A DNA stretch of 64,000 bases, taken from IMG/VR virus record IMGVR_UViG_3300013233_000856, positions 62,001 through 126,000 of that record. One strand, written 5' to 3'. The DNA is from a virus. This document shows positions 12,010-60,188 of this stretch, piece by piece. The notes under the pieces are model-generated. The model ran no database searches. It saw nothing but the letters and a program-made list of their open reading frames with translations, and was not told where the DNA came from. The translations under genes were made by a program, and so were the position numbers. Positions within the stretch are counted from its first letter, which is position 1; every line of letters begins with the position of its first letter.

Positions 12010-15000
12010 CTAGGTCCACTGGTTCGCGCTGGGAGCGAGGCCCTTGTTGCCCTTCTCCTTGATCTCAGAGAGATGCTCGGCCGAGGCTCCGAGCCACTTC
12101 ATCAGCTCCCTGCCGTCCGGCATCCTCTCTCCTATGCGGGCTAACATCTCGTTCTGCTCCGTCAGCAGACGCAACTGCGTCTCACCAGGCTTTCCGCCAG
12201 GCTTCTCCATCTCCTCGTTGCCGACGAGAGCTGTCTTCATCGGCACGGCCCTGCTACGTGGCCCGCCGCCAAACAGCGAAGCAACTCTACTGAGACTGCC
12301 CTTTATGGGCTCCAACGGGATCCTTTTCGCCTGTTCAACCTGATATGCCCTTTTCAGGGCAGCTCTTCGCGCAGCGGCAACGTCCTCAGTCGCTCCCTTC
12401 TGGCCCGTAAAGCCCTTAACGAGACCACTAGCTGCGCGCATGATTCCCATTGCCTTCGACAATCCTACACGGGGTCCACGCGCAACCGTGGGCTTACGCC
12501 TGGTAACACGCCTAGCAGACCTGCCGGGAGCCATCGCAGTACGAACAGCCTTGCCGATCCGGGCCCCAACCGCTGGGTGGACAGCATGTCCTACAATGCT
12601 GCTCTCGATCCTTGCAAGCCTGCCGTCTATGCTCGCTAATCCCTTGTTTATCTCTCCCAACCCGGCCAGGACCTTTCCGTCACTGTTTGCCACCATGCCT
12701 GTACCGGTCCTCCCGGCGTGCTTAGCAAGGAATTTACTGAGCACTGAGCTAGCAGTCCCCTTCTTTTTCTTCTCGACGTTAGCGGCAGACGCTACCTTGG
12801 CCCGCTTCTGCTCGGCCTTAGCGGCGTCTACGGTCTTTTTGTGGACGTCCGCCACGGCCTTGGCCCGCTTCTGCTCGGCCTTGGCCGACCCGACCGTGGC
12901 CACGTGCGACTTCTTGACCTCCTTGCCGATCCTCGCCTCCGCTGACGCCCCCTTTGCCCTTTCCTTGTTGGCCGCAGCGACCGCCTTGTGCTGCTTTGCC
13001 TCCCTCGCGGACATTTCGGCAGTCAGCTTATCAATCTGTGCTGCAACCTTTCTGCGTTCCTTGATATCCTTTCCGGCCAGGCTCTTCTTGAGCTGCGCGA
13101 TCTTCTTCTCGGTCGCGTTCTTTTCTACTGCAGCGAACTTCTTCCGCATCTTGATTGCGTGCCTATCCTGCTCTCCCTCGGCACTGAAGAGATTCTTCAC
13201 CCATCGATAGGCCTTGACCGCCTTGGATCCGAGCCAGGTGAAGGCCTTGCCAATGCCGGTAATCTTGTCTATCCACTTCCCGATCTTCCATCCAATGAAG
13301 GCAGCTCCTATAAGGGCTATTGCCTCACCTGCCACAACCAACACGCCAGTCAAGCCTGCAGCACCAACAGCTCCGACAACACCCATGACGGCCTCTGCGA
13401 CCACAGGCAGGACGGTTTCAGCAAAGATGCCGAACAGGCTAAAGACGGTAGAGGCGATGCCAAACAGCGAGCTAAGGCCGCCAATGATGGCACCTGCCGC
13501 AGCGACGGCAATGATGCGCCAGTCGCCGAATATATCCATGAAGCCTGACTTCCTTAGCATCTCCACTAGCTTTCCGACCTCGTCCTGAACGCCCTGGAGG
13601 CTGATCTGGACCTTGGCCACGGCCTGGCCGACGGTCAGTGCGAGTTTACGGTAGGTATTCTCCGTATCCTTGGCCCCCTCCTTAAGCTTATCTGTAGCTG
13701 CCTTTGTATGGTCAGGAGCCTTCGATATGCCATTGACCGCGTCCTGAATGCCCTTCTCTGTCATCGTGGACAGAAGCCGGAGCTGCTTTATTCCACCTGC
13801 AACACTGCTGCCCGTAGCGGCCTTTATGCGCGCCTCCAGGTCTATGGTGGACTGACCGGCGGCCTTACGCGCCTTGAACTCCTTGAGCATCGCCTTGGCG
13901 GCGTTCTGCATGACCGTCATCCGTTCCTGGATGGTCATGTTCATCATCTTGCTCTGGCTTACCTGGCTTCCGAGAATCTTGGAGAACTTTATCGCCTCTT
14001 CGGTGTCGAACGCCCGGTCCGTGACCTGCTGGACCTCGCCAGTGTTTATGCCGAGCTTCTTTGCGGCAGCGACTCCGGCCATGACCGTCTTGTTCCAGCG
14101 TGCCATCTGGACGACTCCCGAAGATCCCATGAAGATGGAGTCCTGAGCCAGCTTGACCATTAGCTGATCGATCTCTGCCGAGGTCAGTTGTAGGTCCTTG
14201 GCGGCGGTCTGCATCTCGACCATGCTCTTCGTCGCAAGGTCTAGCTTGTCCACCGATCCGCCTGCCGTGACGACCATTGCGTCCATGGTCTTCACCATGC
14301 GCGCGATGGCGTCAGTGCTTGCGCCGGTCGTCCTGTTCAGGCTGGCTACCCCCATCCGTAGCTTCATTACTCTGTCTCTGCTGTTTCCGAACATGGTCAG
14401 CGAAGTCGTGGCCGCCGTAACCTCCTTGGAAAGGAGGGGCATTCCCTTGGCGGTCATCACACGTATCTCGCTGGCCAGCCCCCGCATCGTTCCTATGCCA
14501 CGGAACTGTATCAGGTGAAAGGCCTCCTCCTGCTGCATGGCCTCCATTATCCCGACCTTGTACAGTCCAGTCAGGGACAGTAGTTCACCGAGCTTGCCCA
14601 TGCCGACCACGTCAAGACCCTTCCTGAGACCAGACTTGACATGGTCCACCAGACCGCCCATCTTCTTGAAGACGGCACTCATGCCGCCCGCCACTACGGA
14701 TCCAACTCGCATTGTCTTGACGAACTTGCCGCCCTGCAGAACCTGCTCCTCTATGTCCTTGACTCGTTCGTCATCCTGCTTAAGACCCTTCTTTCCGATC
14801 TTAAGCCTCCCTTTGTTCTGCTTCTCCATGAACCCATAGAACTTGCGCCACATAACCTGGAACTTGGTCTGCTTCTTCTCGTTCTTGTTCTGGTCCTTCT
14901 GAAAACCAGTGTTGGTCTTGCCGAACTTCTTAAGATTCTTCTCCGCAGTCTCCGCTCCTCCTCCACCGCTGCGCTGCGCGGCCACCATCGTCTCCTGAGC

Positions 15001-15309
15001 CTGCTGCACCGCGTCCACCTGTGCCTGCCCAGCCCTAGCCGCCTGCCCGGCCATGTCGCGGTATGACCTGGAGGCCCTATCGACTGCGGCTGGCTGACCG
15101 CCCAGGACGTCAAGTGCTCTCTGGAACTGCTGCGCTATGCGTGAGCCCGCAGACTCGCCGGTTGCGCCAAAGGCATCGAGCTTCCTCTGGACGGAGGCAA
15201 CCTTGGTCTCGAGCTCGTTGAGGACGTTTACGGCACCGCGCAGTACCTCCGTGGCGTTGTCCTGGAGGTTCAGGGAGAGGCTGAGGGCATAGGTGTTGAT
15301 GTCGGACAC
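12010..15309 (-). CDS. Tail tape measure protein
   Basis: A 1099-residue protein, the longest in the tail block. It has a helical N-terminus with a long coiled-coil (NVLNELETKVASVQRKLDAF), a central alanine/glycine-rich stretch with several membrane-type segments around residues 590-690 (IIAVAAAGAIIGGLSSLFGI; VGAAGLTGVLVVAGEAIALI), and lysine/alanine-rich helices after it. This is the normal picture of a tape measure that fixes tail length and enters the membrane at ejection. The start is GTG at 15309 with AGGGG upstream. It follows the gp27-like hub gene by two bases. Confidence 0.85.
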   Translation of the reverse strand: MSDINTYALSLSLNLQDNATEVLRGAVNVLNELETKVASVQRKLDAFGATGESAGSRIAQQFQRALDVLGGQPAAVDRASRSYRDMAGQAARAGQAQVDAVQQAQETMVAAQRSGGGGAETAEKNLKKFGKTNTGFQKDQNKNEKKQTKFQVMWRKFYGFMEKQNKGRLKIGKKGLKQDDERVKDIEEQVLQGGKFVKTMRVGSVVAGGMSAVFKKMGGLVDHVKSGLRKGLDVVGMGKLGELLSLTGLYKVGIMEAMQQEEAFHLIQFRGIGTMRGLASEIRVMTAKGMPLLSKEVTAATTSLTMFGNSRDRVMKLRMGVASLNRTTGASTDAIARMVKTMDAMVVTAGGSVDKLDLATKSMVEMQTAAKDLQLTSAEIDQLMVKLAQDSIFMGSSGVVQMARWNKTVMAGVAAAKKLGINTGEVQQVTDRAFDTEEAIKFSKILGSQVSQSKMMNMTIQERMTVMQNAAKAMLKEFKARKAAGQSTIDLEARIKAATGSSVAGGIKQLRLLSTMTEKGIQDAVNGISKAPDHTKAATDKLKEGAKDTENTYRKLALTVGQAVAKVQISLQGVQDEVGKLVEMLRKSGFMDIFGDWRIIAVAAAGAIIGGLSSLFGIASTVFSLFGIFAETVLPVVAEAVMGVVGAVGAAGLTGVLVVAGEAIALIGAAFIGWKIGKWIDKITGIGKAFTWLGSKAVKAYRWVKNLFSAEGEQDRHAIKMRKKFAAVEKNATEKKIAQLKKSLAGKDIKERRKVAAQIDKLTAEMSAREAKQHKAVAAANKERAKGASAEARIGKEVKKSHVATVGSAKAEQKRAKAVADVHKKTVDAAKAEQKRAKVASAANVEKKKKGTASSVLSKFLAKHAGRTGTGMVANSDGKVLAGLGEINKGLASIDGRLARIESSIVGHAVHPAVGARIGKAVRTAMAPGRSARRVTRRKPTVARGPRVGLSKAMGIMRAASGLVKGFTGQKGATEDVAAARRAALKRAYQVEQAKRIPLEPIKGSLSRVASLFGGGPRSRAVPMKTALVGNEEMEKPGGKPGETQLRLLTEQNEMLARIGERMPDGRELMKWLGASAEHLSEIKEKGNKGLAPSANQWT

Positions 15310-17725: not shown

Positions 17726-20700
17726 TCATCCGCACTTGGACCATCCGCAGTCCATGCAGGTCATGCAGAGCCCCTCTACCTTGACGTTGCGCTGGCTGCA
17801 CGATGGACACTTGAACTTGCCGATGGTCTCCTCTGCCCTGACGTATTCGGACAGTACCCGTGCGCAGGCCCTGGCAAAGTTGGTGATCGGAACCTTGGAC
17901 TTCAATATCTGGTCGACCACGAACTCAAGAGGAGTACCATGACGCAGTGCCGTGCTCATCAGGCGGGTCACCAGCGATGCGTCCGTCTCCTCGTACCTGT
18001 TGAGCTGCCTTATCAGCATGGCTCCGCTCTCGAAGCTATAGGTGTTGCCCTTGTCGGTGCTCTCCTTGAAGATGGTCCCCTCCATCCCGCCTGATACGCA
18101 TGCCTTCTCGTGCTCCAGGGCGAACACCTCGTAGACCCTGTCGTCAAGGAGTCCCACGAAGACGGCATACTTCTGTCCGTTCGGCTTGATTACATGCACC
18201 CTAGCGTCCAGCCGTACCGGGCGCCTCGGCGCACTGCGGACCTCTATGGTGTCCTTTGTAGTCCGCTTGCTGACCAGGACTCCCTCGCGGGACCCGTCGC
18301 GGTAGACCGTGATACCCTTGCACCCGGCCCGCCAGGCCTCCACATAATACCGGCCCACTTCCTCCTCGGTCGCAGTCGACGGAAGGTTGACAGTATTCGA
18401 TATCGACTGGTCGATGTACCGCTGTATCGCTCCCTGCATCCTGATGCGGAACTCAGGACTGACTTCATGCGCCGACACGAAGTAATGTGGAAGGTCCTGG
18501 CCGTGTTCCTCGAGGTATTCCTTAGCGACGGGATGGAACACGTCATGCTCCACGACCTCCTTCGCGGTCCCCAGGTTGGTCTTCCGGACGTACTTCATCA
18601 TGAACACCGGCTCGGTTGACGACGAGCATCCGGCCAGGCATGATATGGATCCCGTCGGTGCTATCGCGTGCAGGGCTATGTTCCTGATGCCGGTCCGCCG
18701 GATGTCACACTGAATCTCGAACGGGAGCCTCTTGACGAACTCGGACCTGCAGTGCCTGTCGGCGTCGAACGCCGGGAAGGGACCCTTCTCGACCGCCAGC
18801 CGGCACGACTCGTCGTACGACGCGGTCATGAACGTCTCGAACACCTTCTCGGAGATCCGGACGGCATCGTCCGTGTCATATCCGGTGCGCATCTTCAGGA
18901 GCATGTCAGCAAAGCCCATCGCTCCAAGGCCAAGCCTGCGCCCGTTGTCATTGGCCCATTGCTGGAACTCCATCGGGGCCTTCTCGAGGGTAATGACGCC
19001 GTCCAGAAACCGCACAGCCGACCTGACGTCCTTCTCGAACGCCCCGTGGTCGAACGAGCAATCCTCTCGGAACGGACTGCGGACGTACTTCCCGAGGTTC
19101 ATGGACCCGAGATTGCACGAGTCCCCGTGGGACAGTGCTACCTCGCCGCAGTTGCCGACCCGCAGTCCAGAGACCGTCATCTCGTGATGCTCAGGCTCAG
19201 TAAGGCAGAAGGTCTCTTCCTCTCCGGCGTACTCGATCGAGACGACCTTCTTGTGCGTCCTCCTGGCAGAGTTTCCGGAACCGCAATGTGCGTCGAGCCA
19301 GGCGGCCAGAATCACGTTCCTCCATTCCTGCATGAACCCGATGGTCTCATGAAACCTCACTAGGTTCTCCCTGCGCGAAACGATCAACTCATATTGGGCT
19401 CTGAACGGATATGTCTTCCTGCCACCGTCCCCGTCGTTCATTTCCTTCATGCCAGGCTTCCTGCGCATGGTCACGGTCGAGTCAATACCGAGCTGGGACA
19501 GCATAAGCTGACAGTCGCTCAGTAGCCCGAGCCTAGACTGCGCAAGCCTTATTGATGCTGAACACCTTGACTCATTGATCTGAACGCTACCGTCCGCGCT
19601 GAACAGGCCACGCATGAACATGGCTATGGTCCGTTCGTTGCCGGTCCACATCGACGCAGGAATCAGGTGCTTCGAGCCCGGTACCAGGCCGTCCTCCGCC
19701 ATCAGCCGCCCAAGGACAATTGAGCAGATCTCTGCCTTTGCACAGTCGAAGCCCTTGTCCCGGACGATCCTCGGTTCATATTCCGGACACTGATCGGTCG
19801 AGGAGTTCGACCTTTCATAGACCTTTTTCATGGCATTCTTCAACGCCGGCATGGCCGCCTCTATGTCCCTGCCCCATGCACGCACATGGGCCCTATGGCC
19901 ACGTTCGAAACGCGAGACGGAACCATCTCCTATGGTCCATCCGGCCAACAGGGCATATTCCTCGTAGTCGAAGTCTCCAAACGACGTGTTGCGCTGGACA
20001 GGAACCATGTCGCCAGGAACGACGTCCCTGAGCGAAATCCTTCCCTTTCCCTTCACCGGGAACCTGTGCCCTGCAGTCGCGACGATGAAGGATCCGTCGT
20101 CATAGGTGACCCGGTAGACCGGTGCGGCCTCGGACGTGCGGTACACGCAGCTGGAACCAGTCAGGCCCGTCCTGCTCACTATTCGCTGAGCCTGTTCCCG
20201 GACGGACTCCTCGCAGTGTTCCTTGAAGCCCTGCTCGGCCCAGAGCTCGCGGGCTCTGCGATATCCACGCTCCGTCAGGATCCGCATATCCCCGGCCAGG
20301 CACGGGTTGGTAGTTAGGCACTTGAACCTGTCGTACTGCTGGGCCGGAACCTCCCTGCAGGTGGCGTCCCAGAACAGCAGTCCTGGCTCTGCGCGCTTCC
20401 ATGCGAAGTGGACTATCTTGTTCCACAGGTCCCGCGCCGAGACCGTGCTGTACGTCCTGCCGCCCCACCGGAGGTCGAACGGCGCATCGTCCAGGACAGC
20501 GCGCATGAACTCGTCGGTTACCTTGACGCTGACGTTGGCGTACCTGATCCTGTCGAGACCGTCGCCCTTGATCTCGACGAACTTCTCCACGTCCGGGTGA
20601 GCGACGTCCAGGCTCAGGAGCAACGCTCCGATCCTGGCGGACTGCCCTATCGTGCAGGTGACGGTGCTGAATAGGTCCATGAAGGCCACCGGCCCGCCTG

Positions 20701-21178
20701 ACGTCCTTGCTGCGTTGTGTACGGGATCTCCGCTCGGCCTGAGGACCGACAGGTCCACCCCGCAGCCGCCACCGGCCTTGTACGTCTGGGCCATCCTGTT
20801 TAGGCAGGTGAAGATCGCCTCGACGGAGTCGTCCTCTATCTCTATCACGTAGCAGTTCTTGAGAGTCACCGCAGCCGGATTGTCGAGCCCGTACATGATA
20901 CGCCCTGCGGGCACGAACTTGAAGTCCTCGAGCAGCTCTCGATATCTGCGATACGCCTTCCTGCCGCCGTCCGTCCTGGCCACCGCCTTAGCCATGCGGT
21001 CCCACATCGTGGCCGGACCGTCCTCCAGAAGCTCGCCATCCTCGTCGTGTAAGAGGTACTTGTCCACCAGCACGGTGGCGGCCAGGCTGTCTCCCAGCAG
21101 CTCCGTGCACTCCTCGATCACCCTCCTGCGGTCAAGCTTCCTGGTTGCGTCCCTGCGTCGTTCAAGCGTGGCCGTCAT
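17726..21178 (-). CDS. nrdJ: Class II (B12-dependent) ribonucleotide reductase with intein
   Basis: An 1150-residue precursor; the enzyme alone would be 766 residues. Residues 90-290 carry the reductase core (AGRIMYGLDNPAAVTLKNCY; GGGCGVDLSVLRPSGDPV; HPDVEKFVEIKGD). The C-terminus has four cysteines in a zinc ribbon (CPSCSQRN ... CMTCMDCGW), a hallmark of NrdJ-type adenosylcobalamin enzymes. The conserved NPCGE site is interrupted between P292 and C293 by a 384-residue intein (N676/C677 junction). The enzyme makes deoxynucleotides without a partner subunit or oxygen. ATG at 21178 with GAGG upstream. It sits just before the primase gene in a nucleotide/replication operon. Confidence 0.9.
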   Translation of the reverse strand: MTATLERRRDATRKLDRRRVIEECTELLGDSLAATVLVDKYLLHDEDGELLEDGPATMWDRMAKAVARTDGGRKAYRRYRELLEDFKFVPAGRIMYGLDNPAAVTLKNCYVIEIEDDSVEAIFTCLNRMAQTYKAGGGCGVDLSVLRPSGDPVHNAARTSGGPVAFMDLFSTVTCTIGQSARIGALLLSLDVAHPDVEKFVEIKGDGLDRIRYANVSVKVTDEFMRAVLDDAPFDLRWGGRTYSTVSARDLWNKIVHFAWKRAEPGLLFWDATCREVPAQQYDRFKCLTTNPCLAGDMRILTERGYRRARELWAEQGFKEHCEESVREQAQRIVSRTGLTGSSCVYRTSEAAPVYRVTYDDGSFIVATAGHRFPVKGKGRISLRDVVPGDMVPVQRNTSFGDFDYEEYALLAGWTIGDGSVSRFERGHRAHVRAWGRDIEAAMPALKNAMKKVYERSNSSTDQCPEYEPRIVRDKGFDCAKAEICSIVLGRLMAEDGLVPGSKHLIPASMWTGNERTIAMFMRGLFSADGSVQINESRCSASIRLAQSRLGLLSDCQLMLSQLGIDSTVTMRRKPGMKEMNDGDGGRKTYPFRAQYELIVSRRENLVRFHETIGFMQEWRNVILAAWLDAHCGSGNSARRTHKKVVSIEYAGEEETFCLTEPEHHEMTVSGLRVGNCGEVALSHGDSCNLGSMNLGKYVRSPFREDCSFDHGAFEKDVRSAVRFLDGVITLEKAPMEFQQWANDNGRRLGLGAMGFADMLLKMRTGYDTDDAVRISEKVFETFMTASYDESCRLAVEKGPFPAFDADRHCRSEFVKRLPFEIQCDIRRTGIRNIALHAIAPTGSISCLAGCSSSTEPVFMMKYVRKTNLGTAKEVVEHDVFHPVAKEYLEEHGQDLPHYFVSAHEVSPEFRIRMQGAIQRYIDQSISNTVNLPSTATEEEVGRYYVEAWRAGCKGITVYRDGSREGVLVSKRTTKDTIEVRSAPRRPVRLDARVHVIKPNGQKYAVFVGLLDDRVYEVFALEHEKACVSGGMEGTIFKESTDKGNTYSFESGAMLIRQLNRYEETDASLVTRLMSTALRHGTPLEFVVDQILKSKVPITNFARACARVLSEYVRAEETIGKFKCPSCSQRNVKVEGLCMTCMDCGWSKCG
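19151..20302 (-). mobile_element. LAGLIDADG intein in the ribonucleotide reductase
   Basis: Residues 293-676 of the reductase precursor (384 codons). It starts CLAGDMRILTERGYRRA (block A with nucleophile Cys), has TAGH in block B, and two LAGLIDADG endonuclease motifs, LLAGWTIGDGSV (about 410-421) and FMRGLFSADGSV (about 521-532). The end is VGN followed by Cys, with Gly instead of the usual His before Asn. The exteins rejoin to NP-CGE, a universally conserved active-site region, a known favourite insertion place of RNR inteins. Both endonuclease motifs look intact, so homing may be active. Confidence 0.85.
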
Positions 21179-42738: not shown

Positions 42739-44112
42739 CTAGTACTCGAAGACGAACCTCGCCCTGCGCAAGCCCCACTTCCTCACGTATCCGCGCTCGG
42801 CTGCAAGCTCCGCCTCCCTCATCCCCATCTTCCGGGCATGGTTGTACATCGTCTTCTTGTGCATCACGAACCCGTCCCGGTCTACGTACCAGTATGAGCG
42901 ACCAGACCACCCATCGAACTTCCAGTTGCACGCCCGGTACACCGACCCAGAATGCCCGAACGTACCGTCCGCAAACGACAACAGCAGCCTAGTGGACGAC
43001 CTGACGCCGCGCAGCATCCGCATCGACCTGGACAAGAACCAGCTCAGCAGATTTCTGTTCTCATATCCAGCCCTCCTGCACAGCCTGGTAAGCTCCCTCA
43101 CCTCCCCAGGGCTCCGCCCGAGCCTGATCAGGCTCTCATTCCTCGTCACCCCGGCAAACGTGCACACCGCGACCAGTTCGCCATCCATCACGGCTCCGAA
43201 CCTTATCTGGCTACGGCCATGGCCCAGCGAATAGGTATAGTGATACTTCTGGATAAACTCCACGGCCTCACGGTTTCCTATCGGGACTACCGAAAGGTCC
43301 GACAGGTCCACGTGGACCATGCCCACGTCCGCACCCGTCCATGAGCGCACGAGCTCCACCACCTTGCCCCTACACAGGAACTCATGTTCCCATATCGTCC
43401 TGACCTTAAGCTCCGGAAAGTACCGCTCCACATAGGTCGTCTTCGCCTTGTCGTTCCTTACGTGCACCGGAGTGTTGTGGAAATAATCACCATTGCACTC
43501 TATCAGGACTCCATGATCGGGCAGAAAGCAGTCGAACGCATAATGCCCGATCCTGTGCTCCGGCACGTGCTCGACACCGAGCTCATCAAGGATCGCATAG
43601 AGCGTCCTCTGGATGCCTGAGATCCTCGGCATCGGAGCAAAGATGCCGGTCCCAGCCTCCCTCTGGGAGTCCAGGATCCTCCTTCTCTTGGCGCGGTATC
43701 CGTCGTCCAGCCAATACCTGCAACGAGCGGCGCAGACCCTCTGACGGTACCCCTCATCCTCTGCGAACTTCCTGCTAACCGTCTCTCCTATCCTCCTACG
43801 GACTTCCCCTGACATGGCCTCCCTACTGCGCCTGCTCCTCTCCTCGCCGGACAGTCCATCCCAGAACGCCCTGGATGCCCTAGACGCCCTCTCCCTGGCC
43901 TCCCTGGAGGACCAAGCCCTAGCCTGCGAGGACTTGCGCGCAGCGACGACGACCGGATGCCTGCGGTAGCACTTAGGGCATAGGTAGGATCCCACGTTAC
44001 ACGCCTGTCTCCTGCACTTACGGCGGTGCTCCTTCGGGACCACGCGGTCCTCCCTGCCACACTCCGAGCAGCGCGCAGTGTTCCCGGACAGGCACTGGTC
44101 GAAGTCTACCAC
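42739..44112 (-). CDS. Second Vsr-like nuclease fused to a Mom-like domain
   Basis: A 457-residue protein, paralogous in layout to the 1950 gene. Residues 1-60 hold a zinc ribbon (CSECGRED; CPKCYRR) in place of the HTH. Residues 65-150 are basic repeats. Residues about 165-250 form the nuclease (FDCFLPDHGVLIECNGDYFH, ECNGD at 205-209, EHEF at 242-245). Residues about 290-450 are Mom-like (LGHGRSQIRFGAVMDGELVA; VRELTRLCRRAGY; LSFADGTFGHSGSVYRACNW at 378-397). It overlaps the end of the polymerase III alpha C-part by 7 bases and starts with GTG. It may be a mobile element next to the split polymerase. Confidence 0.7.
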   Translation of the reverse strand: MVDFDQCLSGNTARCSECGREDRVVPKEHRRKCRRQACNVGSYLCPKCYRRHPVVVAARKSSQARAWSSREARERASRASRAFWDGLSGEERSRRSREAMSGEVRRRIGETVSRKFAEDEGYRQRVCAARCRYWLDDGYRAKRRRILDSQREAGTGIFAPMPRISGIQRTLYAILDELGVEHVPEHRIGHYAFDCFLPDHGVLIECNGDYFHNTPVHVRNDKAKTTYVERYFPELKVRTIWEHEFLCRGKVVELVRSWTGADVGMVHVDLSDLSVVPIGNREAVEFIQKYHYTYSLGHGRSQIRFGAVMDGELVAVCTFAGVTRNESLIRLGRSPGEVRELTRLCRRAGYENRNLLSWFLSRSMRMLRGVRSSTRLLLSFADGTFGHSGSVYRACNWKFDGWSGRSYWYVDRDGFVMHKKTMYNHARKMGMREAELAAERGYVRKWGLRRARFVFEY

Positions 44113-46580
44113 AGCACCTGTCCCTCCGAGTACACGTCAAGTTCCTCCTCCGGAGAGGACGCCTCTCCGCGCCGGCTCAGGGGGACTATCACGGACCGAG
44201 GCCCTATCTTGAAGCTGTCCCTCTCCCTATCGTACACGACGTTCATCCTGATCCCGGCTCCCTCCTGCAGGGCCCTCTTGTCGGACGAACCATAGGCGTC
44301 CGCCCACACGAAAACCCTAGCCGTCCGTATCCCGTCATTGACGTGCAGCACATAGAACTGATTGCCCGCCTTGGACGACCTACTCTCTATCTTCTCCACC
44401 ACGCCCTCAAGCGTACCGCCGACCTTCGCCCTCTCGACCGTATGGCCATGTGACCGGAAGGCCTCCATCGGAGAGCTCCAATAGTGTCCGAGAAACTCCT
44501 TCTCCATCTCCAGACGCTCAGCCAGGGACCAGTCCGTCCCGACCGTGGACATGACCTGCCCCCTGGTAACCGTTATCTTAGGTCTCCACTTCGCGATCTT
44601 GGACGGCAGCTTCTTCCTCCTGGGATATAGCTTGAAGTACTCGCTCGCCTGCCTCGCGCGCTCCTTCTCTACCTTCTCCTGCGGCCACTCGAACTTGGCT
44701 TCTATCTCCCGGCGGAGAGCCGTTATCTCCTTTCCAGAGCAGTACTTGTAGAGATACCAGGTCCAGAGAGCCTTCCTGTTCGGATGGATGGAGTCGAACC
44801 CACCCAGCTTTATGAGCCTCTCGAAGATCCTCTTGTCCTTCCCGCACCGCTCGACCATCTCGTCCACGTCACGGAAGGGACCACATACCGACGCAAGCTT
44901 CTCCGCCGCCTTGTCTCCAATTCCCTTGACGGACGCGAGGCCGGGCAAGACCTGGTCCCCACTGACGGTAAAGTCCTTCTCAAGGGAGTTGACGTCCATG
45001 GGGGCAAACTCCACGCCGTCCGACCTTGCCGAGCCCATGTAGCTGCTCATCTTATAGGCAGGACAGGCTGACAGGACTGCAGCCCACCATTCGGCCGGAT
45101 AGTGCGCCTTGAGATACAGGCACCTGTAGGTCATGATGCTGTAGGCCACGGCATGGGACTTATTGAATGCGTATCTCCCAAAGGTAACCATCTGGTCCCA
45201 CCATTTCCGCGCCTCCTCCTCGCCGAGCTCCTTGCCGGCCCCGGACATCCACCTCTCCTCGACCCCAGGAAGCTTGTCCAGCCACTTCTTGGAGACTATC
45301 TTGCGGGCCTTCTCCGCCTCAGGAACAGTGAACCTACCAATCTGGATCCACACCGCAGTGAGCTGCTCCTGAAAGCAAATTATCCCATGCGTCTCCTCAA
45401 GGATGCGCACGATCCTAGGATCCATCCCTTTCCTCCAGGACCCCGAATGATCATCGCGCCGCCTGATGTACTCCGGAATCATGTCCATCGGACCCGGACG
45501 ACCGAGAGCATTATACACGATCAGGTCCCAGAAGTCCCTAACGCCACCGTCCGAAATGATCCCCTTCTGGATGTCAGTCTCGATCTGGAATACAGAGTCC
45601 GTCCGCAGATCATTGCACATCCGGAGAGCCTCGACGTCGTTGAACGAGATCGGCTCCCTCCTCCCGTCCCTCTCAAGATATCCTGCGACCGGAAGATCGG
45701 ACCTCGGATCCATCCCGTCCCAGACGACCAGGACGCCCCTATTGCGCAAGACAAGGTTCCCCGCCTGCCAGACATAGAACATCGTCTTCAAGCCGAGGAC
45801 GTCGAACTTGATGAGCCCGAACTTCGAGAGCTGCATGCTCCGGCCCTCGGTCCACTGGCTCGTCCATGTCCCCTTCATCCTAGACAGGGGCACCACCCCA
45901 CGCAGGTCCCTATCCGCAATCACGATCCCACCCGCATGCGTAGACTGCGCGCGTATCTTGCCCACGAGCCGAAAGGCCAGATCGACTATCTCCGGATGCT
46001 CACTCCTGTACCGCATAAACTCCTCAAGACGAGAAGCGTCCACATGAGCCTGCCTGCGCACCTCCGGATCCGGATCCTCTGCGCGCTCAACAAGGCCATC
46101 TATGTCCCCCAGCGACATGTCGTCGAACTCGTCCGGAAGACCCTTGGTCATCCTGGACACTGCACGCCAGTCCGCCCCGAGCGCACGCGCCACGTCCGTC
46201 AGAGCACTCCTTGGCTTATACGTCACCCAGTTTCCTATACTGCAGACATGCACATACCTCTCCCTGGCATATTGCTTGATCGTCTCCCGCGCATGCGGCA
46301 AGAAGTCAAGGTCTATGTCAGGGAAGTCCGTGAGCCGCACCCATTCATGCGAAACTGCCTCGGCCACGGGATCGACGGGAGTCATCCCAAGGAGAAACGG
46401 TATGACAAGGCCGTTCTGATTGTGTTCCCACCTACGCCCCTCAGACACGCACTCGGTCCAGTATGTCTCCGCGCCCTGCTTCGAAATCTCGGCGACCTCA
46501 GTCTGAAGACGCTCGACATACTCCCCACCCCTCACGGCAGCAGCCGCTGACGCTCTAGAGCACACCTCGTCCCAGTCCAT
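44106..46580 (-). CDS. dnaE: DNA polymerase III alpha subunit, C-terminal part (catalytic aspartates)
   Basis: An 824-residue protein that starts inside the palm. PDIDLDF (residues 87-93) and FDVLGL (Asp260) are the catalytic aspartates. GKIRAQSTHAGGIVIADRD, FQIETDIQKG, VYNALGRPGPM, GIICFQEQL and FGRYAFNKSHAVAYS follow in family order, then a helix-hairpin-helix (LASVKGIGDKAAEKLAS) and a C-terminal OB-fold (LEGVVEKIESRSSKAGNQFY). The 86 residues before PDIDLDF have no DnaE equivalent. The N-terminal half of the enzyme is the separate gene at 47458. ATG at 46580 is directly after the preceding stop. Confidence 0.85.
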   Translation of the reverse strand: MDWDEVCSRASAAAAVRGGEYVERLQTEVAEISKQGAETYWTECVSEGRRWEHNQNGLVIPFLLGMTPVDPVAEAVSHEWVRLTDFPDIDLDFLPHARETIKQYARERYVHVCSIGNWVTYKPRSALTDVARALGADWRAVSRMTKGLPDEFDDMSLGDIDGLVERAEDPDPEVRRQAHVDASRLEEFMRYRSEHPEIVDLAFRLVGKIRAQSTHAGGIVIADRDLRGVVPLSRMKGTWTSQWTEGRSMQLSKFGLIKFDVLGLKTMFYVWQAGNLVLRNRGVLVVWDGMDPRSDLPVAGYLERDGRREPISFNDVEALRMCNDLRTDSVFQIETDIQKGIISDGGVRDFWDLIVYNALGRPGPMDMIPEYIRRRDDHSGSWRKGMDPRIVRILEETHGIICFQEQLTAVWIQIGRFTVPEAEKARKIVSKKWLDKLPGVEERWMSGAGKELGEEEARKWWDQMVTFGRYAFNKSHAVAYSIMTYRCLYLKAHYPAEWWAAVLSACPAYKMSSYMGSARSDGVEFAPMDVNSLEKDFTVSGDQVLPGLASVKGIGDKAAEKLASVCGPFRDVDEMVERCGKDKRIFERLIKLGGFDSIHPNRKALWTWYLYKYCSGKEITALRREIEAKFEWPQEKVEKERARQASEYFKLYPRRKKLPSKIAKWRPKITVTRGQVMSTVGTDWSLAERLEMEKEFLGHYWSSPMEAFRSHGHTVERAKVGGTLEGVVEKIESRSSKAGNQFYVLHVNDGIRTARVFVWADAYGSSDKRALQEGAGIRMNVVYDRERDSFKIGPRSVIVPLSRRGEASSPEEELDVYSEGQVLW

Positions 46581-47457: not shown

Positions 47458-48804
47458 TCACTCCATCTTCACCTGCAGCATCCTGCCGCCCCTGTTCGGG
47501 CTCAGGAACCTGTTGAACGAAAGTCCCCACGCTATGGGATCCAGGGACGTTATCCCCAGAAGCCAGCACACCAAGGACCCGCCCGCACTCCCCCTCGCCG
47601 GACCGATCGGCCAGCCCCTCCTATGGGAGCAGTCCACCAGGTCCTTAGTAATCAGGAAGTACGAGGCAAAGCCCTTCTCGACGAACCTCCTAAGCTCCAG
47701 GATCATCTGCTCCCGATAGGTCACCTCCAGGCCGTCCATCGTCGAATACTTCGTATCATCCAGGTGAAGACCACGCCTCTTGAAGCCCTCCCACGCGGCC
47801 TGCACCAGGACCGGCACGTCGTTCTCAAGCCTAGGTAGCTTCGGCGAGACGTCCGGATCGAACGCCTCGCACATCTCCGCGACCAGCAGCGTCCCGTCAC
47901 AGGCCTTCTCAAACTCCGCCAGCCCTACCCCGTCCGAATAGCCCTTCGTAAGGAAGGTCTTCCGAAGCTCCTCCCTCGTCTTGAAGAACTGCTCGTCCGA
48001 ATTCACGTGGAAAAGCTCCGGATCGTCTACCGTGGTCCCCTGGTCTATCGCCATCATCGTCTTCTGGACCTCGAAGTCACGCCGTTCGAGATAGTGGCAG
48101 TCGTTCGTCAGGACGGTCCGTATTCCGAACCGGCCGGCCAGCTCAACAAGGGTCCTGAAGGCCTTCACGTCCCCAACCTCCTCGTCGAGGCACGGCATCT
48201 GCAGCTCGATGAAGTAGTTCTCACCGAACGCCTCCTTGAACATCTTGACGTACTCGACCGCGCCGCGGAACTCGCCGCCTGAGAGGTTATCCTGCCTGAT
48301 CTCGTGAGCGACTGGACCGTTAAGGCATCCGGAGAGGACGATGAGTCCCTCGGAGTGCGCGGCCAGGTTCTCGAACCACACCCTGGGCTTGTAGAAGAAT
48401 CCGTGCTTTATCGCATAGTTGTTTATCTTCAGGAGGTTGCCGTATCCGGTCATGTTCCTGCACAGGACGGTAATGTGCCTGTTCCTGCGCATCCTGGCGT
48501 TCAGTCCGCGCTGCGTCTCGAGCAGGTCCTTGACCTTTCCTCCGGACTCGACCAGCTTCCTCCTGCGCTGCTCGTAGTCGTTGTAGTACAGCTCGCACCC
48601 CGCTATGAACTTCACGGAGTGCTCAGTTGCCGAGATGTGCGCGTCCGGGATGCTGCTCATCGTCCCGTGCTCGGTTATGGCGAAGGCCGGCCACCCCCGT
48701 TCTGCGCAGGCACCGAAGTAGGCCTCTGGTTCGGCGACCCCGTCCAGCATGCTGAAGATGGTATGGTTGTGCAGGTGCACGAACTGTTCAGGAGCAGCGT
48801 CCAT
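47458..48804 (-). CDS. dnaE: DNA polymerase III alpha subunit, N-terminal part (PHP and first palm half)
   Basis: A 448-residue protein. The PHP domain is at the start: HLHNHTIFSMLDG (10-22) and FAITEHGTMSS (42-52), with HYLERRDFEVQ later. The polymerase part reaches PARGSAGGSLVCWLLGIT and FNRFLSPNR, then stops after ten more residues. In ordinary DnaE the catalytic 'PDFDVDF' follows that FLNPER segment within a few residues; here it opens the separate gene at 44106. ATG at 48804 is preceded by GTATTTTA. Confidence 0.85.
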   Translation of the reverse strand: MDAAPEQFVHLHNHTIFSMLDGVAEPEAYFGACAERGWPAFAITEHGTMSSIPDAHISATEHSVKFIAGCELYYNDYEQRRRKLVESGGKVKDLLETQRGLNARMRRNRHITVLCRNMTGYGNLLKINNYAIKHGFFYKPRVWFENLAAHSEGLIVLSGCLNGPVAHEIRQDNLSGGEFRGAVEYVKMFKEAFGENYFIELQMPCLDEEVGDVKAFRTLVELAGRFGIRTVLTNDCHYLERRDFEVQKTMMAIDQGTTVDDPELFHVNSDEQFFKTREELRKTFLTKGYSDGVGLAEFEKACDGTLLVAEMCEAFDPDVSPKLPRLENDVPVLVQAAWEGFKRRGLHLDDTKYSTMDGLEVTYREQMILELRRFVEKGFASYFLITKDLVDCSHRRGWPIGPARGSAGGSLVCWLLGITSLDPIAWGLSFNRFLSPNRGGRMLQVKME

Positions 48805-53148: not shown

Positions 53149-53478
53149 TCACGCATAGAACCCGTCCGAGTCCACGCACACCAGGTCGTCGAACGACACT
53201 ATACAGTACACAGGCCGCTCCGGATCCTCCACCGTGGGACATATCTCATAATAGAACCTGGCCTCGCGGTCTATCACCACCCTGTCCCCGACCGCCACCT
53301 CACGGCACCCGAACCTCCCGTCCTCCTTCCCGCAGAGCGGACAGTCCCTCCCGAAAGAGACCACCCTCCCCACCTGCGCAGGACCGTCCGCGTCCTCCAG
53401 CTCCAGAAGGACATGCCTCCCGACAGGCACCGGCAGAGCCTTCCCGCCCGGTCGTCCGCTCTCCGTGCCCTCACTCAT
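53149..53478 (-). CDS. GroES-like co-chaperonin (T4 gp31-like candidate)
   Basis: A 109-residue protein of co-chaperonin length. PVPVGRHVLLELEDADGPAQ + VGRVVSFG, then EVAVGDRVVIDREARFYYEI and VYCIVSFDDLVCVDSDG follow the Cpn10 order (P-x-x-x-x-[R/H]-x-L-x-x; G-x-x-V; V-x-x-G-D-x-V; [Y/C]-I-V-x-x-x-D-[I/L]-x-x-[I/V]). It has an extra CPLCGKEDGRFGC insert where the mobile loop would lie. T4 gp31 folds the capsid protein with host GroEL. Here it starts at an ATGAG overlapping the actin-like gene. Confidence 0.55.
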   Translation of the reverse strand: MSEGTESGRPGGKALPVPVGRHVLLELEDADGPAQVGRVVSFGRDCPLCGKEDGRFGCREVAVGDRVVIDREARFYYEICPTVEDPERPVYCIVSFDDLVCVDSDGFYA

Positions 53479-54523
53479 CGGAGTGCATCTCCGCAGCCGT
53501 CAAGCAGCCCCTCGACACCGCAAGCAGCGGCTCAGGAGCCTGCCTCACCTCCCCAACGGGAACGCCCAACTCCCCAGAGTGCTCCGACAGCTTCGCCGAG
53601 AGCAGAACCATAAAGCCCTTCGGCATCGACGTCCCCCCAGCGTTCACCACCGTCACCGGCTCCGGAAACCTACACTTGTCCCTGTTGTCGCCAAAGCCCC
53701 TCGCTATCGAATGCACGATATTCTCAACCTGTATCTCGTACATGATCCTCAGGGCCTGCCCCACCGAACCCGCCGGATGGTCAACCCCAAGGTCGAACTC
53801 GGGAGACGTCTTCACCGCCGCCACCGACGTAGGAGTCTCCCTATAGTCCCCCTCCGGACGCGCCGGATCGTACCCGAACCTCCTCGCCGCCTCCAGGTCG
53901 ATCAGGTCACCCGCCCCCACCACGCAGAACTCGAAGATCGGGATCCCCATGTACGCCGCATGCACCGTGATGGTCCCCGCGCCCCACGAGATGCCAATGG
54001 CAGGCCCCTGCACGTCCATGATCAGGCACCGCGCCTCGTTTACATGGAAGGCACTGATCCGCTCCTGCCCCACGAACTTCTCGATCATCAACTGGACGAT
54101 CCTACGGTGAAAGTCCACGTTCAGGGACTCGGAGTTCACCGCCTTGGCCGTCGTGCAGTAGTACAGCACCGTCCCCTTCTCCGGAGACTTCCCCACCACC
54201 GACTCTATTATCGACTTGACGATGATCGCCATGATCTCCTGCGCGGCCGGATCGTCCCGCGAAACCCCACCCTCCGCCATCGGACGGCGCAGCGTCTTGT
54301 TGAACATGAACGCAAGCTTCTCCGCCTTCCCCCCGATCGCTATCAGCGACCCACCATGCTCCACGTGCGGCACCCCCTGCTTCACCAGAAGCTGCCTGGT
54401 GAACTGGTCGTCCCGCCTCAGCTCAATGTAGCCGTTCACCTCGTACCGGCTCCTGACGCGGCCATCCTCCCTCCACGACAGCACGATGTGCTTAGTGCCC
54501 AGGTCAAGTCCAAGCCTATCCAT
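53471..54523 (-). CDS. Actin/ParM-like ATPase
   Basis: A 350-residue protein; ATG at 54523 (MDRLGLDLGTKHIVLSW) with AGGAGG. Phosphate-1 is LGLDLGT (4-10), phosphate-2 is AIGISWGAGTITVHAAYMG (about 175-193), and the adenosine loop is VTVVNAGGTSMPKGF (about 290-304). This is the actin/Hsp70/ParM superfamily; no Hsp70 substrate-binding part is present. Phage actins can segregate or position DNA. The upstream Gly-rich gene (54516) may be its adaptor. The function is inferred from fold motifs. Confidence 0.7.
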   Translation of the reverse strand: MDRLGLDLGTKHIVLSWREDGRVRSRYEVNGYIELRRDDQFTRQLLVKQGVPHVEHGGSLIAIGGKAEKLAFMFNKTLRRPMAEGGVSRDDPAAQEIMAIIVKSIIESVVGKSPEKGTVLYYCTTAKAVNSESLNVDFHRRIVQLMIEKFVGQERISAFHVNEARCLIMDVQGPAIGISWGAGTITVHAAYMGIPIFEFCVVGAGDLIDLEAARRFGYDPARPEGDYRETPTSVAAVKTSPEFDLGVDHPAGSVGQALRIMYEIQVENIVHSIARGFGDNRDKCRFPEPVTVVNAGGTSMPKGFMVLLSAKLSEHSGELGVPVGEVRQAPEPLLAVSRGCLTAAEMHSDE

Positions 54524-54821
54524 GATGATCCTCCTGATCCGCCCCCTTGACGTCCTCGCCGAACCCGACGGGACTGCTCCCGAGCCCCCCAAGGCCCGAC
54601 GCGAACTGCTCGAGCCGCTCCTCGTCGGACACCGGAACGACAGGCCCACCACCTGGGCCGCCTCCTCCCGCCTCAACCCATGGTCCGGATCCACCGGAAG
54701 GCTTCCCCTCCGCAGGCCCGGCGGGTCCATCGACGACGACGCGAACCGGCGCGACCTCAACCCGCACCTCCAGTCTCCCAGGACAAGGACCGAACAGCCA
54801 CCTCAGGAACCTCCCGATCAC
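54516..54821 (-). CDS. Gly/Pro-rich protein, possible partner of the actin-like protein
   Basis: A 101-residue protein. The GTG at 54821 overlaps the TGA of the previous gene (GTGA), so this start is preferred over an ATG 111 bases upstream. The middle is Gly/Pro-rich (VEAGGGGPGGGPVVPVSDEE), the N-terminus hydrophobic/basic (IGRFLRWLFGPCPGRLE). It overlaps the actin-like start by 8 bases. In plasmid-type segregation operons a small adaptor gene lies next to ParM; whether this is one cannot be told. Confidence 0.4.
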   Translation of the reverse strand: MIGRFLRWLFGPCPGRLEVRVEVAPVRVVVDGPAGPAEGKPSGGSGPWVEAGGGGPGGGPVVPVSDEERLEQFASGLGGLGSSPVGFGEDVKGADQEDHHG

Positions 54822-57505: not shown

Positions 57506-58249
57506 TCAAACCGGCCACGGAACGACAGGCCTCCGCCTCCTGGAAAGCCTCCCAGGAACACGGGGCACGCACTCGGAAGGGTTCAGGATACAATACAGGT
57601 CATCTATCTCCCACCCCTGACGAACCACCCCACGGCACAGCGACGACTCAAGCACCGCCGCCCACTTCCCCTCCCCACGATCATGCACCCACGCCCTACA
57701 CACCCGCCCGACCAGCCTAGAACCCCAAGCGTTCCAACCACGCTTCGGGGAGAACCTCTGCCTACGCACAAGCTCACCACAGCGGACCCACCCGGCACCG
57801 GGCAGCCTAATGAAACCATCTCCGAAGAGCACCCTCTCGTGTACCGGAGCCCCAGTGCCCCTATCCGCCCTAAAGCACCCATGGTCACCACCGCGCAGGA
57901 CCCTCGGAAGGTCCCCAACCGACCTCACGGACGGACGGACGAAGTCAAGGACCGCCACTACGTCCCTGGCGGCCTGCTCGAGCACCACGGGGTGCACCGG
58001 CCTCAGCTCCCTGTGCGACCATGTTAGCTCAACCAGGTCCCCTAGGACGTCCTTCATCTCGAACACTGGTAGGGAACGGCCCTCCACGATCGCCCTATAC
58101 CACCCGGACAGGATCCAGTTGTGGACGAACCTAGTCGCTAAACATGACCTGCTGAAGGACTCCTCCTGCTCCTCCCCAGGATACAGGTGTACGGCGTGCC
58201 TGTCGAACAGCCTGATCCCGGACCGTATGCGGACATCGAACTCGGCCAT
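57506..58249 (-). CDS. TnpB/IS605 OrfB-like protein lacking the RuvC nuclease
   Basis: A 247-residue protein; ATG at 58249 (MAEFDVRIRSGIRLF) with GGAGG, chosen over 58294. Residues 23-47 (YPGEEQEESFSRSC then LATRFVHNWIL) match the TnpB/OrfB N-terminal helix 'YP-x-x-EQ ... RFVYNW', PVVLEQAARDVVAVLDF (87-103) matches the 'P-x-x-x-LQQALRDL' segment, IRLPGAGWVR (147-156) the 'I-x-LP-x-x-GWVR' strand, and VCRAWVHDRGEGKWAAVLES (183-202) the last strand before RuvC-I. No D-x-G RuvC motif follows; the protein ends 45 residues later. TnpB proteins use an RNA guide; without RuvC this one could at most bind. A long structured non-coding region lies on its 5' side. Confidence 0.55.
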   Translation of the reverse strand: MAEFDVRIRSGIRLFDRHAVHLYPGEEQEESFSRSCLATRFVHNWILSGWYRAIVEGRSLPVFEMKDVLGDLVELTWSHRELRPVHPVVLEQAARDVVAVLDFVRPSVRSVGDLPRVLRGGDHGCFRADRGTGAPVHERVLFGDGFIRLPGAGWVRCGELVRRQRFSPKRGWNAWGSRLVGRVCRAWVHDRGEGKWAAVLESSLCRGVVRQGWEIDDLYCILNPSECVPRVPGRLSRRRRPVVPWPV

Positions 58250-58321
58250 CCGGTCAAGTCCTCCACTCAGTGCCTCTTTGCACATTGGAAACATATCCTC
58301 TGAACCAGGACTCTCAGGAGA

Positions 58322-59033
58322 GGGGCAAGCGGCCTGTCCTCTTAGTCGATCCAGAGCGTATATAGCGTCACTGGAGGGAAAGGACCCTCCCGAGGGGACA
58401 GGCCTGATCTTTAGAAGGGCCAGTCCAGGCGGTCGTTAGAAAGGCAGCCGGGTCACCGACCCTGCAGCGCGTCGTGATGACGCCCTGTGTGACCAGGCGG
58501 ACCCGTTCAAATGGGTACGGCTAGACCGCCAAGACAAAAACAGCAAAGCCTAGGGCGCAGTTAAAGCCAAGCAGGACAGAGGACCGCCGGTGAACTCTAA
58601 AGTCTCATAGCCGGCAACACAGAACGCCATCGTGAACCGGACCGGGCGTGGCACCCCGGAAACGACACGATGCCGGCACGGCGCTGCACATGCTGCTCGA
58701 TCACGGCACTAGAAAAAGCCGAACGGGGCACACACGACGCTGAGTGAGGATGGAAAGGGACGACAAGCCACCTTCTCCTGAGAGCACATGTGCAGGACAG
58801 ACCGACCGGAATAACCAGCGGGCCAAGAACAGGCGACTGTCCTTGGCGCCGGAGAGTAGCGGTAATCAGTCCGCCACGATGGAACTCCGGCAATGCGGAC
58901 CTCTGCTTGGTCGTGACCGCCCGGACGAGATCCGGATGGACGCGCGAAAGGAAGCATCCTGGCCACGCCATGGTCACCTGTCTAGAGGACCATGGCCCAC
59001 GTTTAACAAGGATGGTACCTTGGAGGTGATGAA
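58322..59033 (+). ncRNA. Large, densely folded structured RNA candidate (GOLLD/ROOL-like class?)
   Basis: About 710 bases without a credible ORF but with at least 13 helices read directly. Examples: 58331-58339/58396-58404 (9 bp) enclosing 58373-58378/58385-58390; 58428-58434/58524-58530 (7 bp) enclosing 58450-58454/58458-58462, 58469-58473/58479-58483 and 58501-58504/58513-58516 with a T-loop-like GTTCAAAT; 58586-58590/58611-58615; 58628-58634/58666-58672 with 58642-58646/58655-58659 inside; 58822-58827/58842-58847 with 58829-58832/58837-58840 and a GCGA tetraloop; 58968-58975/58988-58995; 59007-59011/59018-59022. The plus strand is preferred because of the GNRA loop. Size and ornate fold recall GOLLD, ROOL and similar phage RNAs; identity is not established. 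Confidence 0.6.
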
Positions 59034-59055
59034 CTAGGCTACTGACAACCAAATA

Positions 59056-59273
59056 ACTGGATCCATCTCATGGCCAGTGGGCTCATTCTCTCCTGCCACA
59101 TGCAGCGGCACACCAAGGAGAAGAGGAAGAGGAAGAGAAAGATAGACATAAAACCAGTGCCATTGACCTCATTGACCTCATTCTCTCCTGCCACATGCAG
59201 CACAACACCAAGGAGAGGAAGAGGAAGTAGAAGGCGGCAGTCGTTCCCTTCTGCCATATGGAGTGGATCCAGT
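59056..59273 (+). ncRNA. Second structured element with duplicated hairpin
   Basis: A 218-base unit closed by a perfect 10-bp inverted repeat, ACTGGATCCA 59056-59065 with 59264-59273, and by ATGGC 59070-59074 with GCCAT 59253-59257. Inside are two direct copies of a unit (59082-59136 and 59177-59228) sharing 25 identical bases at their start and CACCAAGGAG shortly after; each folds as CTCCT...AGGAG. A GAAAGATA sequence at 59137-59144 lies between the copies. It may be a 3' domain of the same RNA or a separate one. No convincing ORF covers it. Confidence 0.5.
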
Positions 59274-59560
59274 GCTGGGGGCCAGGAAGTTCCTCTCCCT
59301 TGTCCTAGTGGGCCATGGACAGCAGGATAGATCAGTGGTCACCGCAGGATCTGGAGGCCAACAGCTGAGGTTCCGGTTATCTTGTTGAAGTCCCGGTTAC
59401 CTCTACCCCTGATAGCGATGGGACAGCTGACTGTTACTGGTGGACTGCTAGTATAGAGTACCGCTGGTCCAGGGCCTTGCAGGCGGCGGATGCGGATGCA
59501 ACTGGAGACATCATATCCAGACAGAGAACGGACAACTAGAAGAAAATGAGCCAATGAGTG
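59274..59560. other. Non-coding stretch, nothing firm
   Basis: About 290 bases between the structured element and the paired palindromes. A CCGGTTA heptamer is repeated at about 59371 and 59393. A 97-codon frame on the minus strand (59339-59632) lacks a ribosome binding site and normal phage composition, so I do not call it. No promoter or hairpin of note was seen. Confidence 0.4.
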
Positions 59561-59565
59561 AGACA

Positions 59566-59608
59566 AAACAACCGGTTGTGATAGATAAGGAACATAAAAC
59601 AACCGGTT
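59566..59608 (+). promoter_or_regulatory. Twin palindromic operator-like sites
   Basis: ACAACCGGTTGT is a perfect 12-base palindrome found at 59566-59577 and again at 59597-59608, each inside AAAACAACCGGTTGTG. The copies are 31 bases apart, close to three helical turns, so a dimeric repressor or activator could bind both on one face. They lie about 75-120 bases upstream of the zinc-finger gene at 59679 and just after the non-coding region. No other copy was seen in the window. Confidence 0.6.
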
Positions 59609-59678
59609 GTGGTCTAAAGAAGTTACTTGCATTTAGTCTCTTATTTGATATCGTGACCCTGGTCTTGGAGAAGACAAA

Positions 59679-60188
59679 GTGGCCATGTTCTGGATATGTA
59701 AGGAATGTGGTGAAAGGATGACCGATAGGCAGTCATATCTCGAACACTCGTGCGCGCCAAATGGTTCAGTGCAGGCTTGCCTCTCCAAGCGCGACAAGGC
59801 CCTGGAAGAGATAAGGTTCTGGATAGGCAAGGTTCCCTATGAGTTGCGTTCAGTCCTCGTCATGACCGTCAACCTGCTTAAGATGATCGATCCTGACGAG
59901 AAGACCTTCGTCGTAGACGGCGAGCTGTATAGGAGAAAGATGGAGGATGCGGAGGAGCGCGCCAAGGATGCGGAGGGGCGCGCCAAGGAGGCGGAGGAGC
60001 GTGCCAAGGAGGCGGAGGAGCGTGCCAAGGAGGCGGAGGAGCGTGCCAAGAGAGCGACGGAGAGATTCATGGCCCTGATGGAGGACAACAACGCACTAAA
60101 GGCGAAGCTGTTCGACCTGCAGGAGGAGATGGACAGGCTCCGCGCAAGGATGATGTCGACTGAAAAGAGGATGCTGGACCTGGACTAA
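59679..60188 (+). CDS. C2H2/C2HC zinc-finger protein with coiled coil
   Basis: A 169-residue protein; the start is GTG 59679 (GGAG 8 bases before) or ATG 59685. Residues 6-25 (WICKECGERMTDRQSYLEHSC) look like a zinc finger with Cys-x2-Cys and His/Cys. Residues about 88-125 are five near-identical heptads (EAEERAK type) encoded by a 21-base DNA repeat, and the end is a second coil (LFDLQEEMDRLRARMMSTEK). It could be a DNA-binding regulator; the twin palindromes upstream may be its own or another protein's sites. Confidence 0.6.
   Translation: MAMFWICKECGERMTDRQSYLEHSCAPNGSVQACLSKRDKALEEIRFWIGKVPYELRSVLVMTVNLLKMIDPDEKTFVVDGELYRRKMEDAEERAKDAEGRAKEAEERAKEAEERAKEAEERAKRATERFMALMEDNNALKAKLFDLQEEMDRLRARMMSTEKRMLDLD
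59946..60050 (+). repeat. Five tandem 21-base repeats
   Basis: Five in-frame copies of a GA[T/G]GCGGAGG[A/G]GCG[C/T]GCCAAG unit. They code for a seven-residue coiled-coil heptad, so copy number changes keep the frame and alter coil length. Confidence 0.85.

Follow-up and report, generated by a model that had tools for sequence, protein, structure and literature searches.

Between two divergent genes of an unclassified, uncultured phage lies a 1.4-kb interval without a credible gene, and the question that it raises is whether this DNA is the template of a large structured RNA. The window analysed here comprises 64,000 nucleotides (C1:62001-126000 of a 140,546-base IMG/VR virus record), and coordinates refer to this window unless the contig is named. 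The interval is bounded by a minus-strand gene (57506-58249), whose likely ATG start at 58249 is preceded by the Shine-Dalgarno sequence AGTGGAGG, and by a plus-strand gene (59679-60188).

58250 to 59678, no strand assigned: noncoding gap between divergent genes (codon log-odds, Pfam, GC skew)
58311 to 59044, plus strand: structured part, candidate noncoding RNA of about 730 nt with approximate ends (helix and MFE z-scores, purine content)

Codon log-odds trained on the genes of this phage are negative in all six frames across 58250-59678, the flanking genes score between +0.15 and +0.40 per codon, and none of the nine ORFs tested gave a credible Pfam match. The preliminary description, made from the letters alone, had thus placed the gene-free stretch correctly; its remark that genes nearly touch elsewhere was slightly overstated, as a crude ORF caller leaves further gaps, up to 548 nt long, without an ORF.

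In the segment 58311-59044, perfect Watson-Crick helices of 7 bp or more number 29, a count in which mutually exclusive pairings are included, versus 12.7 +/- 3.3 in 150 dinucleotide-keeping shuffles (z 4.9). Among windows of this phage, the excess is the largest of 62, and the MFE z-score, second among 49, is about -3.9 on the plus strand and -3.4 on the minus strand (-5.0 and -4.6 when 766 nt are folded, with 20 shuffles); an equally strong MFE z-score is found in one coding window (14101-14834). Repeats account for some of the helix excess, because the word AGGACAG and its complement CTGTCCT recur in several copies (at 58573, 58794, 58334 and 58837). The domains and the best hairpins on the plus strand nevertheless each beat their own shuffles (z between -2.6 and -4.5). 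Downstream, 59045-59530 folds like its own shuffles (z -0.4) and 59531-59678 weakly better (z -1.9), and the other ORF-free gaps tested in the window have absolute z-scores of at most 1.25. The segment 58311-59044 is noncoding and has a helix-forming capacity beyond chance that is restricted to it. Hence, the folding formerly ascribed to the whole 1.4 kb holds for about 730 nt, and the remaining 634 nt are mostly unstructured. The accompanying proposal of a large structured RNA is upheld for this part by helix excess, energy and noncoding character, all of them evidence from a single sequence.

The predicted plus-strand fold consists of three domains, the third of which carries several strong hairpins.

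58331 to 58404, plus strand: domain 1, a 13-bp stem (58331-58343/58392-58404) with two inner hairpins, pair probability 0.93
58423 to 58535, plus strand: domain 2, closing helix 58428-58434/58524-58530 (GGCGGTC/GACCGCC), pair probability 0.96
58498 to 58519, plus strand: T-loop-like hairpin in domain 2 with TTCAAAT at 58506-58512, pair probability 0.81
58547 to 59040, plus strand: domain 3, multibranch, closing helix AGCCTAG/CTAGGCT (58547-58553/59034-59040), pair probability 0.97
58684 to 58795, plus strand: long stem CTGCACATGCTGCTC/GAGCACATGTGCAG, pair probability 0.97
58822 to 58847, plus strand: 11-bp hairpin with a GCGA (GNRA) loop at 58833-58836, pair probability 0.99
58848 to 58891, plus strand: hairpin arm GCCGGAG/CTCCGGC, pair probability 0.98
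58967 to 58996, plus strand: perfect 9-bp hairpin GCCATGGTC/GACCATGGC, pair probability 0.99
58311 to 58784, plus strand: competing long-range helix 58311-58324/58771-58784, 13 Watson-Crick pairs and one GU pair

The elements previously picked out by eye are all present: the helices 58331-58339/58396-58404, 58428-58434/58524-58530 and 58628-58634/58666-58672, the GCGA tetraloop hairpin with its loop at 58833-58836, and the T-loop-like stem with TTCAAAT at 58506-58512. The long-range helix 58311-58324/58771-58784 (duplex energy -25.3 kcal/mol) competes with this arrangement, and a fold forced to contain it reaches -302.5 kcal/mol versus an MFE of -302.9 kcal/mol, so that two global folds are equally stable to within 0.4 kcal/mol. 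The helix might represent an alternative fold or form a pseudoknot with the closing helix of domain 3.

Which strand would be transcribed is not decided by folding energies, whose z-scores are similar on both strands; domain 1 folds better on the plus strand (z -4.05, versus -2.2 on the minus strand) and domain 3 on the minus strand (z -5.5, versus -4.3 on the plus strand). Isolated G.U versus A.C mismatches within helices do not clearly prefer either strand; the single mismatch of the hairpin at 58822-58847, for instance, is A.C on plus and G.U on minus. The T-loop-like and GNRA loops both lie on the plus strand, and the structured part has 57% purine on that strand, compared with about 50% or less in the 20 minus-strand genes listed and about 50-62% in plus-strand genes; this purine excess runs on to 59678. 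We regard the RNA as probably read from the plus strand, since its purine content matches that of the plus-transcribed genes of this phage. A promoter and terminator scan of the region recognised no plus-strand site.

Comparison with known RNA families was carried out at two levels of stringency. A cmscan of the window with all Rfam 15 families gave no match at the gathering score, and with lax filters (E<=10) the best E-value was at least 1.2, all hits being far under the gathering score. The families covered include introns, RNase P, tmRNA, HEARO, OLE and raiA; riboswitch and other cis-regulator families of Rfam were likewise unmatched, and in the rest of the contig a tRNA was the sole Rfam match. 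The comparison with GOLLD, ROOL, OLE, HEARO and raiA that the preliminary description proposed therefore produced no credible match at the gathering score or at E<=10, and its suggestion that the RNA might belong to GOLLD, ROOL or their relatives finds no backing in these searches, either in the window or on the whole contig. The GOLLD model (RF02032) has no match on the whole contig at E<=10, with controls that matched only below the cut-off, and the ROOL model (RF03087) has none there, with control genomes that gave none either. The group II intron domain model RF01998 does not match, and a retron or other reverse transcriptase-associated RNA was rejected on the grounds that the PF00078 reverse transcriptase, which the controls do match, is absent from the contig.

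Searches for homologues gave a similar picture. With the region as query, blastn found only chance matches of 30-40 nt in phages and plasmids. Exact seeds from unpaired linkers, searched for in 2.9 million viral contigs as well as 85,000 genomes, had matches without flanking similarity, and the search through neighbouring proteins returned chance matches only. Relatives of the gene at 60222 were sought and none found, nor did a 147-kb contig that carries a distant DnaE yield a match.

The gene on the other side of the interval encodes a protein that is related to TnpB.

57506 to 58249, minus strand: TnpB-derived protein of 247 aa, divergent from the candidate RNA (PF12323, hhalign, alignment)

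It matches PF12323 (TnpB helix-turn-helix) with 23.1 bits at a cut-off of 21 and, weakly, TnpB chains in a PDB search. When it is compared with six phage TnpBs by hhalign, 123 columns align with P 7e-6, versus P-values of 0.19 and 0.41 for two controls, and an HMM built from these six proteins finds this single locus in the contig (E 3.5e-4). In the alignment, the REC (HTH) and WED regions are kept, similarity stops shortly past RuvC-I, whose GIDLG motif is degenerate (apparently GWEID, aligned by eye), and RuvC-II/III and the zinc ribbon CxxC are absent. A zinc-ribbon search of the contig gave nothing above the cut-off, the phage has no second TnpB, and homologues of the protein were found neither in viral contigs nor in phages or genomes. 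Its AlphaFold2 model from the single sequence has a mean pLDDT of 39.6. Because its codon usage is gene-like, the gene is probably expressed; there is also the possibility that it is a remnant. The parts of TnpB that are retained serve RNA and target recognition, and for this reason the protein is a natural candidate partner of the adjacent RNA, to which it is linked by adjacency only.

Taken together, 58311-59044 is a real noncoding and unusually foldable segment that most likely specifies a large structured RNA outside Rfam. We give about an even chance to the specific reading that it encodes a large multi-domain phage noncoding RNA of a separate class, most likely on the plus strand. The segment would then be the template of a multi-domain RNA that acts folded, as a structural scaffold or the core of an RNP, and not as a message; in this it would resemble the large ornate phage RNAs, yet as a separate class. 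We infer its transcription, its strand, its ends and its status as a free-standing RNA rather than a leader, and the RuvC-less TnpB-derived protein, with its divergent start about 60 nt away, would be its candidate partner. This reading is supported by the noncoding character in six frames, the helix and energy excess, the plus-strand purine content, the loops on the plus strand and a neighbour from an RNA-binding family. Counting against it are the failure to find a homologue, the strand-ambiguous energies, the two equal folds and the want of a recognised plus-strand promoter or terminator, as well as the coding window 14101-14834, which folds with a comparable MFE z-score.

GOLLD and ROOL are large, multi-domain, noncoding RNAs of phages and prophages whose function is unknown (PMC12286853); a ROOL example measures 659 nt, and GOLLD RNAs often exceed 800 nt (PMC12286853). 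The candidate RNA is likewise large, multi-domain, phage-borne and noncoding, but it lacks a sequence or structure match to RF02032 and RF03087, and a TnpB-derived gene adjoins it. While GOLLD is often found near tRNA islands, the window contains no tRNA, and a single tRNA-Arg lies at about 41 kb of the contig. GOLLD and ROOL are of the kind that forms homo-oligomeric nanocages. OLE, an ornate noncoding RNA of about 600 nt, works as an RNP (PMC12054373, PMC12286853). Unlike OLE, which occurs mostly in Bacillota and not in phages, the candidate is phage-borne and has no Rfam match. To our knowledge, few classes of large ornate RNA have been described. Two of the three recently solved ornate RNAs are RNA cages of unknown role. 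If the reading is true, this set would gain another class with no relation to the others, from a phage lineage remote from any sequenced isolate.

Alternatively, the interval could be the replication origin of the phage combined with a divergent promoter region, with the hairpins acting as DNA or as a primer RNA like ColE1 RNA II that starts replication. Over the whole 140.5-kb contig, the cumulative GC skew is lowest at 58500, where gene orientation flips from mostly minus to plus, and the gap itself holds two palindromes and a pair of repeats.

59075 to 59231, plus strand: 62-nt direct repeat, two copies, 82% identical
59568 to 59610, no strand assigned: two identical perfect 12-bp palindromes ACAACCGGTTGT, 31 nt apart

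The ACAACCGGTTGT palindromes occur only twice in the contig, and their position upstream of the gene at 59679 suggests an operator-like site. Because of the skew minimum, the orientation flip, the palindromes and the repeat, an origin or a region of divergent regulation has to be counted as a real rival, and one that is compatible with an RNA too; a fold excess alike on both strands is also what would be expected of DNA hairpins. A strand switch by itself shifts the skew, however, an iteron array was sought in the structured half and none found, and 730 nt of dispersed multibranch helices exceed what origins usually contain. The candidate would resemble ColE1 RNA II-type primer RNAs in being a structured RNA at a possible origin, but it lacks an Rfam sequence match to them, and the origin is putative. 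We consider the origin reading unlikely. Equally unlikely, in our estimate, is that there is no RNA and that the segment is decayed or captured DNA whose wealth of complementary words is accidental. The AGGACAG/CTGTCCT copies that explain part of the helix excess, the searches that found no homologues and the one coding window of comparable MFE z-score would fit this view; the first rank among 62 windows by helix excess and the subdomains that each surpass their shuffles in folding energy (z -2.6 to -4.5 on the plus strand) argue against it.

A more specific variant of the RNA reading, somewhat less probable still, joins the RNA to its neighbour: TnpB and its omega-RNA would have given rise to an RNP in which the nuclease was lost and the RNA grew into a large scaffold or guide-like molecule. 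The retention of REC and WED, the end of the protein shortly past the degenerate RuvC-I and its being the sole TnpB in the phage accord with this idea, and there is established precedent in the TldRs, nuclease-dead TnpBs that phages encode and that are accompanied by guide RNAs (PMC13418256). As in TnpB/omega-RNA and TldR/gRNA systems, a protein with TnpB REC and WED stands beside a candidate structured RNA; unlike in these systems, RuvC is mostly missing, and the RNA has about 730 nt and lies on the 5' side, probably on the opposite strand. Omega-RNAs are encoded on the same strand as tnpB, overlap its 3' end and are much smaller than 730 nt. TldRs carry RuvC-inactivating mutations, whereas most of RuvC is gone here. 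Furthermore, nothing but adjacency ties the two together, and the gene may be a remnant. Such an RNP of TnpB descent would perhaps be a repressor or an RNA chaperone complex. That a new large phage RNA class forms an RNP with a domesticated TnpB cut down to its RNA/DNA-recognition half, from a lineage that shed the nuclease and gained a giant RNA, is graded as improbable; if true, the RuvC-less TnpB would offer a concrete protein through which function could be approached, and a new evolutionary outcome for Cas12 ancestors. Relative to the preliminary description, two points are new: the TnpB descent of the neighbouring protein and the minimum of the GC skew.

The least probable reading is a long regulatory leader, either a 5' UTR of the plus-strand operon from 59679, for which the purine excess that persists to 59678 speaks and the 634 mostly unstructured nt and the operator-like site between fold and gene speak against, or a minus-strand leader of the TnpB-derived gene, whose transcript would enter 57506-58249 directly and in which domain 3 folds slightly better, but which would be pyrimidine-rich, contrary to the rule in this phage, with the riboswitch families of Rfam unmatched in either case.

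The phage itself appears nearly alone in the collections searched, because its best DnaE matches are about 26% identical (among 50,697 phage records) and its closest relative is only a fragment outside the region. This relative, the 25.5-kb IMGVR_UViG_3300037264_005519, is colinear with 17.7-46.6 kb at 31-61% amino acid identity and stops short of the candidate RNA region; its GC content of 38%, versus about 58% here, amounts to a large shift in composition. The contig encodes a contractile-tail baseplate, a primase, DnaB and RecA/UvsX, as well as a DnaE-type polymerase in two parts, an intein-bearing ribonucleotide reductase and a Volactin-like actin. The two DnaE genes (44106-46580 and 47458-48804, minus strand) lie about 0.9 kb apart, and their ends both correspond to one and the same part of the family. 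For the Volactin-like actin (53471-54760, minus strand; PF25216, E 4e-44), a search of viral contigs found no relative. Positions 14051-14350 fold on the plus strand with a z-score of -4.1, within and antisense to a 1099-aa ORF (12010-15309, minus strand) whose family is unassigned. LAGLIDADG-containing inteins are present in the ribonucleotide reductase (17726-21178, minus strand) and the terminase (L003:5425-9162, minus strand), and the ORFs at 1950-3494 (plus strand) and 42739-44112 (minus strand) each match Mom-like DNA modification proteins and HNH/homing endonucleases.
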